DNA of 24,781 nt. It comes from a virus. Below are positions 3,283 through 20,040 of this stretch, in pieces. Below the pieces are notes generated by a model, which made no database searches, was not told the DNA's origin, and saw nothing but the letters and a program-made list of their open reading frames with translations. Position 1 is the stretch's first letter; every line of letters starts with the position of its first letter. A program made the position numbers and the translations under genes. The stretch is taken from positions 1,901 through 26,681 of IMG/VR virus record IMGVR_UViG_3300030118_000883; one strand, written 5' to 3'.

Positions 3283-5313
3283 TAACACAACATAACGTGA
3301 ACCTGATGGAATGGTAACTGTTACTCCATTAGCTACTGTAATAATTCCAACACTAAATCCTGATTTGTTTGTAGTCATTGTGTAATTATTTGAAATTGTT
3401 AGCGAGTTTTCTGTAACGCAACCATCCGCTTTCTGTGATGAAACTCCTGTCAAGGCAGATCCATCAATAGCTGGTAACGCTCCAGTAAGAGCAGAAGAGG
3501 GTAAGTTGGTTAAACTTGCACCCGATCCACTAAATATAGTCGCAGCAAGTAATCCTGTAGCAGCATTAAAGGTAAGATTTGATCCTGATTTAAGTGCCAA
3601 GTCTCCTGTTGCAGCAGTAGCAAATAAGGGAAAACAGGTGGTATCAGAACTCTCATCAGCAATCGTTGATGTACTTGCATTTCCAACCGCTATCTGAGTT
3701 CCCATATTGACAATGAAATATGTAGAACCGCTAGGAGGAGCAGAATCAAAAATAATGTCAGTACCACTTACAACATATCCATCTGTCATATTGCCTTGCC
3801 CAGTACCATCATTAGGTTGTTGCATGACACCATTGATTGAGACTCGTAAGATCTCTGCATTTACAGGTGTTACTGCTGTACTTGTTCCCTTCGTGACAAG
3901 CTTGAATCTATAAGCAGTACCATTAAAGGTTGCAGATCCTCCACCAGTTCCAGAAGATGATGCAATATCTAATAAATCAGCACTTCCTGTACCGCCAGTA
4001 GAACCTCCAATCTCTCCCCATGAACTACCATCATATCCTTCAAATTCTGATGTCTGACTATTAAATCTGAGCATACCAGCAGAGGGAGAGCCAGGTCTTT
4101 GAGCAGTCGTACCAGCAGCAATATCAATAGCTCCTGTACCTGTCATCGATATATTTCCACTAACAGTCAAACTTGCTAATGTTCCGATGTTGGCAGTAGA
4201 AGAATTTGTCTGAACAGAATTACCCATTAAAGAATGAGAACTACATTGATAATGCAGAACCATCGGAGTGTTATCTACTATCGCAATTTGTGTATAAGCA
4301 CCACTAGAACCTGGTGTTCCATTTGTGGTTACGTTAGTTGTGTAAGCAGTTGTTTTATCTGACTCAAGATAAAAACGAAGAGGATGTCCACTATTACTGC
4401 TATGCGATTGATCGAATTTATATGTTCTACCTGGTGTAAGAGTTATAAATGGTGATTCTTTTCCATCTATGACATAACCACTACTAGATCCACTTCCGTT
4501 ATATCTATGTGCTGCTGTTTTACTCGCAACTGTTACTGTGAAAGTTTTAACCGATCCAGTATAAGTAGCATGAAGAGAAGCAAAACCTCTGATATTACCG
4601 TCATCAGTAAGAGTTAAAGTTCCTGTAAAATTAGGATCTGCATTTTGACCTGGAGCGACCCACGATAAAACTCCACTTGCATTACTGGACAACACATATC
4701 CACTTACACTCGCATCTGTAGCTGGTAATGTCCAAATTAAATTAGATGCAACTGTAGCTGGAGATTTGAAACCTACATAATGAGAAGAGTCATTATCTAA
4801 ATATCTAAATTCTTTTTGACCAGAAACAGAGATATGCTCACTACTTGTCCAAGAATCTGTAGAGTTTACCCAGTTAAATGTTTTATCTGTAGCTCCTTTA
4901 AGAGTTAAACCACCTCCATCAGCAGTTGTATCAGAAGGAGTACTAACTTTTCCAAGCGTAATATTTTTATCTTCAACATCAAGGTTAGTAGTATTTATGG
5001 TTGTAGTCGTTCCATTAACAGTAAGATCACCAGGAATGTTGACAAGACCAGCAGAATTTATAGTCATTCGACCAACCCCTGCTGTACTGAAAGTCAAAGT
5101 ATCAGAGCCACCACTAATTCCTGAATCATTATCCGAGTTAAAACTAAAGGATGGAACAGCAGCCGATCCATCAGGTGCTTTACTTAATAAATTTGAATAT
5201 GCAATCTTTTTGTTTTTATCAGCACCAGTAGCACTTTGATCTATTATTGGAAGCGTATCTGTAGCTGCTGGAGCAGTTAAGGCGGTAAATTCTGATATTT
5301 TGCGGTTTGTCAT
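3280..5313 (-). CDS. Large multidomain tail fibre with cupredoxin-like insert, 677 aa
   Basis: Modules in order: an N-terminal leader TNRKISEFTAL (1-25); the LTVNGTTTTINTTNLDVEDK block (97-116), a motif I recall from cyanophage virion proteins; a WTLPATDASVSGYVLSSNAS module (194-213); a cupredoxin-like domain at about 256-368 with His310, Cys357, His360 and Met363; the GTTAQRP...FEGYDGSSWGEI module (401-435), also present in the next fibre gene upstream; a beta domain with RVSINGVMQQPNDG (490-503); and a C-terminal SGSGASLTNLP...GSALTGV repeat-like segment (595-624). The stop lies inside the ribosome binding site of the 195-residue fibre gene. No clear Shine-Dalgarno precedes it; it starts 2 nt after the previous stop. 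It is probably a main side or tip fibre. Confidence 0.82.
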   Translation of the reverse strand: MTNRKISEFTALTAPAATDTLPIIDQSATGADKNKKIAYSNLLSKAPDGSAAVPSFSFNSDNDSGISGGSDTLTFSTAGVGRMTINSAGLVNIPGDLTVNGTTTTINTTNLDVEDKNITLGKVSTPSDTTADGGGLTLKGATDKTFNWVNSTDSWTSSEHISVSGQKEFRYLDNDSSHYVGFKSPATVASNLIWTLPATDASVSGYVLSSNASGVLSWVAPGQNADPNFTGTLTLTDDGNIRGFASLHATYTGSVKTFTVTVASKTAAHRYNGSGSSSGYVIDGKESPFITLTPGRTYKFDQSHSSNSGHPLRFYLESDKTTAYTTNVTTNGTPGSSGAYTQIAIVDNTPMVLHYQCSSHSLMGNSVQTNSSTANIGTLASLTVSGNISMTGTGAIDIAAGTTAQRPGSPSAGMLRFNSQTSEFEGYDGSSWGEIGGSTGGTGSADLLDIASSSGTGGGSATFNGTAYRFKLVTKGTSTAVTPVNAEILRVSINGVMQQPNDGTGQGNMTDGYVVSGTDIIFDSAPPSGSTYFIVNMGTQIAVGNASTSTIADESSDTTCFPLFATAATGDLALKSGSNLTFNAATGLLAATIFSGSGASLTNLPSSALTGALPAIDGSALTGVSSQKADGCVTENSLTISNNYTMTTNKSGFSVGIITVANGVTVTIPSGSRYVVL

Positions 5314-17292: not shown

Positions 17293-20040
17293 TTATGTGC
17301 CGAAGCAGAATGCAGTTGGTTGCTTGATAGCAAAGTCAACATCTTGCAATGCAACAATTTTGACTGTGCCGCTACCCGCTTTTGTGATTGTATCTACTGT
17401 AAGATCTAAACCACTCCACATACCAATACAGAACTGGCTGAAGTCACCGAATAGTGCATCGTTGTTAACGAGTTGATTTGAAACAATAACTGGGTAGCCA
17501 TTGATTTCATTGTTCTCAAAAACAAACTTACCTGTGTTTGAAGCAACTTCTGTACTCTTCAATGCACCTCTTGCAGAAGCATTAATGATGTAGAACATAT
17601 TTGCTACATCTGCGTTTGCAGCAGCTACATCAGTTTCCATTCCGATGTACTCAGCGAATGTACCAAATGTAGTAATTGTTTGTGTGCCAACACCAGTTGT
17701 ATCTTTGATACCTAATGGTTGGTTTGAAGAACCTGTACCGTAGATAGCTGCATTGTCTAACTTAGTAGCAATTACACGAGCTATATCATCTCTAATCATA
17801 CTTTCAACATCAATAGATGATTGAAGTAATAATCTTCTTGTAAATTCAACCACTCCACCAACAGTTTTTGGTGTCATGTTCACTTGGTCGAAGGCTTGCT
17901 GTGATTCTGTAGGCTCAGATCCTTCTCCAACGAAAAACCCTGTTGCTGTCTGAGTCATTCTAGGGATCGCAATGTTACCAGAAAGTCCTGTAAGCATTGT
18001 TGGGTTTGCAGCCATAACAGCCATTCTCTTACGAAGAATGTCTATAAAAGAACCAGAAAGTAATTCTGTTGGAACTAAGTTACCACCCGCAGTTGCAGTA
18101 CCTACATTCAAGTCTCTTTGTAAAACTTCGTTAGGAACTAAAATTCCATTTGCAGGTTTGTCATAACGCTTAGATGCCTCGTCTGAAACTTCTCTTTCAA
18201 ATGCAGCAGCCTCTTGTGCTGATCTGTCATTAGGGTTTGCTAAAGCATTTAATGCTCTTAAGAAGGAAAACTTCTTAACTTCTTTTGGTTCTAAACCAAC
18301 TTCATTAGTTGTCATGTCTGTTGAACGAATTGGGGTATTGTTTGCCTCTGCCTTGTTTTTAACAAGATCGAGGATTGCTGCTCTTGATTCAACAATAGAT
18401 TTGTTGCTTTTAATAAGAGTCTCAGCTATCTCTTCTGCTCCATACTCTCCGAACTCACGACATAATGAAGTGATAGATGCTGTACGAGCATTGTTTTCAT
18501 CAATAGCACGTTGTACTTCGGCTTTGATGTCGATTTCAACGGATTTCTCCGTATCAACCGCAGTTTCTTTAGTTGATTCTTCCATGTTACGAACTTTGGG
18601 TGATGCGGAATCCTCCGCAGAGATAATCTCCTCGACTGGAGATTTACTTTCTATATTAATACTATTACCTTGAGAGGGGTCAATTAAACTTCTTCCGAAA
18701 CCAATTGTAGGATCTGCTGGAACAGTAACAACTGATAGTTCATGTACCGACCAAGAACGAGCTAGCATTCCATCTTCTGTCTCATCAATATCATTAATAG
18801 AATATCCAAAACTTATACCTCGAATAATTCCATCTTTTACATCTTCTAAAATTTCAGATGCAAACTTACTTCTTGAGAAACGAATCTTTGCATAACCTCT
18901 TTTGTCTTCACCAATATATGCAGATTCAACTACACCTATTGGTTTATCCATATTGTGGTTGAACAAAACCGCACCGCCATCATTAAGTCTTGAAAGATCA
19001 GCAGCACCACTTTCATGGCTGAGAATTTCGTTACCGAAATAACGCTTTACTGGATATTCTGACGAAAAAGGAAACTCAAATGTTCTTGATTTCACATTTT
19101 TGAAATCAGTAACTTCTTTTCTTTCCAATTTGTCATTAACATCTATTGATCTGATAGCTGCAATTTTAGTTAAGGCACTAAATCTATGACCAGCATAGAT
19201 ATCAGTCTCCTCACCATTTCTGTAGACCTGTATCAGGGCAGCAGGGTCATCAGCAGTACCATTAATTACAAAAGAACTACTAGGAACATCAATTTGACCA
19301 TCCCTAACAATTCTTGTAATTTTACCTCTAGCAGTACCACCACTAGCATTCCAGCGAACAAAATCGCCAGTCTTTAAAGCATCTGGTGCTGCTCTGTTGT
19401 CTTCAATAGTTTTTTGAGCCATAGTTTTTTCGTTAGTAGCTGGTTCAAATTTAATGGGATCAAATTCATTTCTCTCAAGCCAGGATCTAGCTTCAGAGGC
19501 AGAATAATCGGATAATCTGAACCTAATAGATTGAAGTTCAGCACCCTCCTCATTATCCTTTATACCAAATATAAAGTCTATGCCTTGTGAGGCTTCATTA
19601 TTAGACCGCCTAAATGTATCATATTGTTCTGAATTTGTAATAGTCGCTGCGTGTTCATTTGGATATGGTCTTGCAAGTTCTATTGGTTCTGCTCTTTCTC
19701 TAGCTTTTTTTATGGCAGCAGCTTTTCCTCTACTCCAACTGAAGCCTGCATCACCTCCCCAAGCAGCCCATGCGACCCTACCTTTTGACGGATATCCCTT
19801 TTCTCCAGGGCTGAAACCTTCTGCTTTCTTGTCAACCTCATGCCTACTGAAAAAACTAAACATACGCAAGGTAACATCTGCTGAAAGTTCTGAGCCACTT
19901 AGTATTTGAGTCGCTCTTACTGCTGCCACTTGCGTACCACCTGCCCTACCTTCTTTTTTCCAATCTTTATATCTTTGTGCTTCTGTCTTCATCCCATCTG
20001 TAGGTTTGAGATTAATCTCAGTTCCGCTTACATTTGCCAT
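17293..20040 (-). CDS. Prohead protease-major capsid protein fusion polyprotein (HK97-type), 915 aa
   Basis: Modules: residues 20-115, a helical module with RHEVDKKAEGFSPGEKGYPS and WAAWGGDAG; 121-200, RPYPNEHAATI ... FRLSDYSASEARSWLERNEF; about 217-295, a Tudor/SH3-like beta module (LKTGDFVRWNASGGTARGKI); 318-450, an HK97-type prohead serine protease with His362 (FNHNMDKPIG), Ser410 (IRGISFGYSI) and the HELSVVTVPADP motif (433-444); 451-575, an acidic linker and coiled-coil delta-like region; 576-915, the HK97-fold capsid protein (TAGGNLVPTELL, FVGEGSEP, PKTVGGVVEFTRRLL, SSNQPLGI, FENNEINGYPVIVSN). HK97 itself uses two separate genes. Maturation would need cleavage between protease and shell, probably between about 570 and 650. 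Residue assignment is by motif only; the third catalytic residue is uncertain. Confidence 0.92.
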   Translation of the reverse strand: MANVSGTEINLKPTDGMKTEAQRYKDWKKEGRAGGTQVAAVRATQILSGSELSADVTLRMFSFFSRHEVDKKAEGFSPGEKGYPSKGRVAWAAWGGDAGFSWSRGKAAAIKKARERAEPIELARPYPNEHAATITNSEQYDTFRRSNNEASQGIDFIFGIKDNEEGAELQSIRFRLSDYSASEARSWLERNEFDPIKFEPATNEKTMAQKTIEDNRAAPDALKTGDFVRWNASGGTARGKITRIVRDGQIDVPSSSFVINGTADDPAALIQVYRNGEETDIYAGHRFSALTKIAAIRSIDVNDKLERKEVTDFKNVKSRTFEFPFSSEYPVKRYFGNEILSHESGAADLSRLNDGGAVLFNHNMDKPIGVVESAYIGEDKRGYAKIRFSRSKFASEILEDVKDGIIRGISFGYSINDIDETEDGMLARSWSVHELSVVTVPADPTIGFGRSLIDPSQGNSINIESKSPVEEIISAEDSASPKVRNMEESTKETAVDTEKSVEIDIKAEVQRAIDENNARTASITSLCREFGEYGAEEIAETLIKSNKSIVESRAAILDLVKNKAEANNTPIRSTDMTTNEVGLEPKEVKKFSFLRALNALANPNDRSAQEAAAFEREVSDEASKRYDKPANGILVPNEVLQRDLNVGTATAGGNLVPTELLSGSFIDILRKRMAVMAANPTMLTGLSGNIAIPRMTQTATGFFVGEGSEPTESQQAFDQVNMTPKTVGGVVEFTRRLLLQSSIDVESMIRDDIARVIATKLDNAAIYGTGSSNQPLGIKDTTGVGTQTITTFGTFAEYIGMETDVAAANADVANMFYIINASARGALKSTEVASNTGKFVFENNEINGYPVIVSNQLVNNDALFGDFSQFCIGMWSGLDLTVDTITKAGSGTVKIVALQDVDFAIKQPTAFCFGT
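18604..18644 (-). other. Tandem inverted repeats in the protease-capsid linker
   Basis: On the coding strand AATCTCC AGTCGA GGAGATT (18644-18625, 7-bp stem) is followed five bases later by TGCGGA GGAT TCCGCA (18619-18604, 6-bp stem). They lie in codons 466-479 of the polyprotein, just after the protease domain and 18 bases before an in-frame ATG (Met486, 18585). Both repeats are seen directly; any role in translation is conjecture. Confidence 0.6.

Follow-up and report, generated by a model that had tools for sequence, protein, structure and literature searches.

A predicted cupredoxin domain with a conserved type 1 copper ligand set in tail fibres and other virion proteins of marine phages

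Results

The fibre gene and its setting

The window, i.e. the whole stretch of DNA analysed here, comprises 24,781 bases out of a virus record of 26,681 bases. Its gene content reads as that of a tailed phage, with small and large terminase, portal, capsid, tape measure, minor tail proteins, a gpJ-like central fibre and fibres following one another in an order which we take to be lambda-like. The fibre gene bearing the domain of interest is located downstream of the gpJ-like central fibre and of a fibre with a collar domain (Table 1). The encoded protein affiliates with the PHROG family phrog_30742, its best match (E 1.5e-58), with residues 223-391 as the best-matching stretch. When the domain was searched alone, it matched phrog_30742 with E 3.8e-58 and phrog_693 with E 9.5e-13, both of which are described merely as tail fibre proteins. 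Elsewhere in the window, a single open frame of 915 aa (17293-20040) matched both head maturation protease and major head protein families; its N-terminal stretch matched phrog_2859, a family of unknown function.

Table 1. Features of the domain-bearing fibre gene, in window coordinates
Feature	Position	Strand	Basis
Tail fibre gene bearing the domain, 677 aa	3280..5313	(-)	Open reading frame and translation; PHROG tail fibre families
Predicted cupredoxin-fold domain, residues about 255-370	4204..4551	(-)	AlphaFold2 model and PDB fold matches
His310, first predicted copper ligand	4384..4386	(-)	Sequence; invariant in the 57-sequence and 11-member sets
Cys357, predicted copper thiolate ligand	4243..4245	(-)	Sequence; invariant in the 57-sequence and 11-member sets
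His360, predicted copper ligand	4234..4236	(-)	Sequence; invariant in the 57-sequence and 11-member sets
Met363, predicted axial ligand	4225..4227	(-)	Sequence; invariant in the 57-sequence and 11-member sets

Predicted fold

Window positions 4171-4578 (residues 246-381) were submitted to structure prediction together with 56 relatives of less than 88% mutual identity, drawn from 160 relatives on viral contigs. The AlphaFold2 model of the domain exhibited nine strands, a mean pLDDT of 84.6 and a pTM of 0.80. In a Foldseek comparison with the PDB, all 50 matches listed were cupredoxin-fold proteins, 20 of them with E ≤0.001, and rusticyanin ranked best (E 3e-4). The listed matches further included two-domain laccases, copper nitrite reductase and multicopper oxidase, as well as factor VIII and ceruloplasmin, which presumably also belong to the cupredoxin group. 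VIA-align gave a Z of 9.2 for the first domain of the nitrite reductase 2dv6 (rmsd 4.3, 109 aligned), 7.4 for rusticyanin 2cal (rmsd 3.5, 97 aligned) and 7.0 for the purple cupredoxin 5fc9 (rmsd 2.8, 93 aligned of 95 residues), where a Z below 8 may reflect a common arrangement and the 50 Foldseek matches listed here come from the cupredoxin group.

The model confidently predicts a cupredoxin fold, a Greek-key beta-sandwich, for the window domain. The initial annotation had proposed the strand order of a cupredoxin and placed the domain at residues 256-368. Structure prediction, Foldseek and VIA-align against the PDB bore out the fold, and the strand order agrees with the AlphaFold2 model; the location holds as well, with limits in the model that are slightly wider. 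Matches to the CBM_4_9 and Ig-like families of Pfam lay below the cut-off, and neither reading was retained, given that the fold matches listed had come from copper proteins or relatives of these. The model also resembles beta-sandwich proteins of Pithovirus LCPAC302/304 and Marseillevirus LCMAC201/202 (BFVD ranks 33, 36, 38, 39 and 45; E 3e-7 to 4e-6), some of which are barely longer than the domain.

Ligand residues

The translation confirmed the residues that had been singled out as a type 1 copper ligand pattern, namely His310 in SGHPLRF and Cys357, His360 and Met363 in YQCSSHSLMGN. According to the DSSP assignment of the model, His310 is found just ahead of a strand, Cys357 at a strand end, and His360 and Met363 in the loop before the last strand. 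The order of a type 1 site, a His followed by Cys, His and Met, thus appears in the sequence and in the modelled strands, and likewise in the alignments to L392 and to plastocyanin-type proteins described below. The C-x2-H-x2-M spacing of the fibre is presumably that of amicyanin. In 20,000 shuffles of the fibre's own letters, this motif arose by chance with a frequency of 0.00045 per shuffle, and the same motif with a His 30-60 residues upstream with a frequency of 0.0001. Given the strand order and the alignment to copper proteins, we infer that the four ligands are near each other in space. A disulfide inside the domain was excluded, since the domain contains one cysteine.

Sequence relationship to copper proteins

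Searched alone, the window domain exceeded the cut-off of no family in Pfam or NCBIfam and had no sequence match in the PDB. It did not match PF00127 (Copper-bind; curated cut-off 21.2 bits) at E values up to 1, and three of the 57 sequences of the family set A2 matched that model weakly, with a best E of 0.013. PF25489 (At5g54830-like) gave 18.7 bits and E 0.0018, below its curated cut-off of 27 bits. The kinship was seen in L392, a domain in a Bacteroidetes genome, which passes PF00127 with 31.9 bits. The phage profile A1 and the PF00127 model match one and the same place in this genome. A BLASTP alignment of the window domain to L392 covered 118 columns with 27% identity (E 4e-6, for a single comparison), and the His, Cys, His and Met of the window domain were all in register. 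Judged by sequence, the phage domain is akin to a Pfam Copper-bind domain.

Profile-profile comparison with five plastocyanin-type proteins above the Copper-bind cut-off yielded probabilities of 46-49% and E values of about 2e-4. In these alignments His fell on His and Cys-x2-His on Cys-x2-His, and the Met was offset because most plastocyanin-type proteins have two extra loop residues. When the profile of the 57 sequences was compared with 177,635 PDB sequences, the one match was pseudoazurin 3tu6, a weak match to be taken as a hint only (E 0.54), which carries the identical C-x2-H-x2-M run.

Occurrence among marine phages

The supposition that marine phages commonly carry the domain proved right in tblastn searches of phage records and in scans of viral contigs. 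With tblastn the domain was detected in 51 of 50,697 phage records, and the named carriers were all Synechococcus, Prochlorococcus, Pelagibacter or Methylophilales phages, cyanophages, marine viruses or one seawater phage. A first scan of viral contigs returned 134 relatives, 80 of which were kept; a second returned at least 591 of 599 stretches, again with 80 kept. Among the proteins in which the domain resides, nine of whose carriers were scanned, are tail fibres and baseplate wedge proteins, together with a minor tail protein and structural proteins of the virion. In marine phages the domain thus behaves as a plug-in module, found in tail fibres, the baseplate wedge and further virion proteins. 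One cyanophage-like contig contains a plastocyanin-type gene together with several copies of the domain. Examples from cellular assemblies are a very long Bacteroidetes open frame and a SAR116 protein, and some of the cellular-assembly contigs with the domain probably represent phage DNA.

Conservation of the ligands

Alignment of homologous domains revealed that all four ligands are kept, as they were invariant in 57 of 57 diverse domains and in 11 of 11 far phage members. The latter are 39-58% identical to the first row of their alignment and have 11 invariant columns, all four ligands among them. In close relatives, the ligands were retained in 61 of 61 unique sequences, the window included. 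Silent codon differences at the ligand positions are common among the copies, and the conservation is therefore not mere recency.

A sample blind to the ligands was fetched by a DNA pattern for TYxFDQxDx[ST]N, in which no ligand position occurs. Among the matches listed, 108 of 123 complete copies had both the His and the Cys-His-Met loop, five had the His only, and ten had neither. A larger collection of 392 complete copies (402 matches minus 10 incomplete ones) mixes sets obtained with ligand-bearing queries and one set obtained with a ligand-free query; within it only L174-L291 are ligand-blind. The loop was present in 305 of these copies, every one of which had the His, and lost in 87, of which 37 had the His and 50 had not. 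Among representatives of less than 90% identity, the His was found in 176/176 copies with the loop versus 23/44 without; the corresponding values were 80/80 versus 10/20 below 70% identity and 40/40 versus 6/14 below 60%.

Fisher tests on the association of His and loop ignore kinship. A tree of 109 domains, calculated with the ligand columns removed, requires ten changes of the loop, three of them forced by supported branches, and eight changes of the His. In independent pairs on this tree the His changed in the same way as the loop or stayed, and never changed in the opposite way; with just three pairs on supported branches, the tree-based coupling test was not significant. These patterns suggest that the His and the Cys-His-Met loop mostly act as one predicted metal site. 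The presence of the His by itself proves little, because it persists in 37 of the 87 loop-free copies.

The axial position of the 305 loop copies was occupied by Met after two residues in 293 cases, by Met after three residues in nine, by Gln in two and by Lys in one. Leu, which the loop expression allowed, was found in none of the 305. The copies in which Gln or Lys replaces the axial Met are of the baseplate wedge type (L236, L252 and L208; the phrog_708 match was tested in L236). Stellacyanin uses Gln as axial ligand.

Ligand-free relatives

Relatives without the Cys-His-Met loop were also found in virion proteins, among them L185, a head closure Hc2 protein, and L207, a fibre of phrog_693 whose copy of the domain lacks the ligands, unlike that of the window fibre. 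One ligand-free branch often retains the His. As a control, a ligand-free branch was modelled with AlphaFold2 (pLDDT 71.8, pTM 0.66); its matches in the PDB were weak, with a best E of 0.015, and cupredoxins were mixed with Ig domains. These sequences indicate that the module can live in a virion protein without metal and does not depend on it; retention of the ligands in other copies gains weight from this. In L185, L212, L226 and L289 the ligand-free copy is situated in the C-terminal part of the protein. The N-terminal part of L185 matches head closure Hc2 (phrog_460), and L212, L226 and L289 share this N-terminal sequence by eye.

Discussion

The type 1 cupredoxins (plastocyanin, pseudoazurin, rusticyanin, amicyanin; PF00127) resemble the window domain in predicted fold and in the order of a His followed by Cys-x2-His-x2-Met near the C-terminal strand, and L392 provides a bridge in sequence. 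They are small exported carriers, whereas the window domain is inserted in a phage fibre and remains below the Pfam cut-off. The phage domain furthermore contains long conserved segments, FDQSDSSN and YTTGVT, that were not seen in the five plastocyanin-type proteins compared. The N-terminal domain of the three-domain copper nitrite reductase 2dv6 and the two-domain laccases were among the highest structural scores; these domains are parts of enzymes, whereas the window fibre matched no enzyme family in Pfam or PHROG.

The reading that we favour, as a moderately probable one given the model and the alignments, is a cupredoxin domain, inserted in the fibre, which most probably holds a single copper ion via His310, Cys357, His360 and Met363 and would perform a mechanical or adhesive job. 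The predicted stoichiometry of one copper ion per domain is likely when considered on its own; that it serves the fibre structurally or as a contact is, taken alone, a tentative suggestion that falls short of an even chance. The apo domain would fold during fibre assembly in the host cytoplasm, and copper would be taken up there or after lysis. Cupredoxins generally function beyond the cytoplasm and are able to fold in the absence of copper; phage fibres assemble inside the host cell, so that uptake of copper at lysis or later is conjecture. The metal would then tie the ligand loops and produce a stiff, exposed beta-sandwich on the fibre, with the domain serving as a spacer locked by metal, or as a module for contact, and not in electron transfer. 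A mechanical or adhesive job is preferred over electron transfer because one and the same module recurs in fibres, baseplate wedge, minor tail and other virion proteins, and because its ligand-free sister branches still sit in virion proteins.

The same ligand-free branches could be taken to mean that the phages reuse a cupredoxin as a beta-sandwich for spacing or adhesion, with ligands kept by descent or for folding and with no role for a metal. That 37 of the 87 loop-free copies still have the His fits this explanation, as does the ligand-free model, which still finds cupredoxins, if weakly and mixed with Ig domains. We nevertheless regard it as rather unlikely, as none of the four ligands varies in a set reaching down to 39% identity and all are kept in 108 of the 123 ligand-blind copies among the matches listed. 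Since ligand-free copies persist in virion proteins, the ligands are dispensable for keeping the domain there, and their retention elsewhere needs a reason.

Two further explanations grant the copper and assign it another task. Copper held by the fibre might help docking to a host metal receptor or a copper-handling surface protein. We consider this quite improbable: the analysis gave no sign of a receptor, the metal of a type 1 site is for the most part buried, which counts against docking, and the domain also occurs in proteins that need not touch the host. Many of the proteins with the domain are tail fibres or belong to the baseplate, which would suit docking, and an iron Trojan Horse idea for tail fibres with HxH motifs is in print (PMC11705849); the window fibre contains no such motif. 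Alternatively, the site might pass an electron or quench oxidants, either on the surface of the host or while a photosynthetic host is being infected. Electron carriers have this ligand set, many of the named phages with the domain are cyanophages, and the cyanophage-like contig mentioned above combines a plastocyanin-type gene with several domain copies. With no partner protein or electron chain seen, and with the domain also carried by Pelagibacter and Methylophilales phages, a redox function is very improbable.

The cupredoxin fold and its site are well known; what is new, within the literature searched, is their predicted occurrence as a virion domain. No report of a cupredoxin in phage virions was found in that literature (a limited library and part of the listings), nor any account of the domain in connection with plastocyanin or copper in phage tails, and the words cupredoxin and copper are absent from the main text of PMC3037559. 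The nearest printed idea in that literature is the binding of iron by HxH motifs in phage fibres, seen in T4 gp37 and proposed in alterophage R22Y; these fibres are similar in having a metal site, observed or proposed, with ligands other than those predicted in the window domain (PMC11705849). No HxH motif was present in the 677 residues of the window fibre. HxH iron-binding fibres presumably also differ in fold from the cupredoxin domain. A complete type 1 ligand set in a widespread virion domain would place a second, better defined metal site beside the HxH iron.

The stronger claim, namely that the virions of ocean phages bear genuine type 1 copper centres by way of a mobile plug-in domain spread over many virion proteins, and that the phages use the metal in infection, is unlikely. 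If it were true, docking to a host copper-handling protein would be an example of such a use, and virions would constitute a biological copper ligand pool in seawater. Several carriers have recorded hosts (Synechococcus, Prochlorococcus, Pelagibacter and Methylophilales), and the copper content of their virions is therefore directly measurable. The ligand-free sister branches are natural, ready-made controls. The predicted fold also gives a name to a domain which in the PHROGs is covered by no families other than those labelled tail fibre, other virion or unknown. In one 802-residue protein (L229:4872-7280), the domain occurs together with stretches that match regulator-of-chromosome-condensation families.
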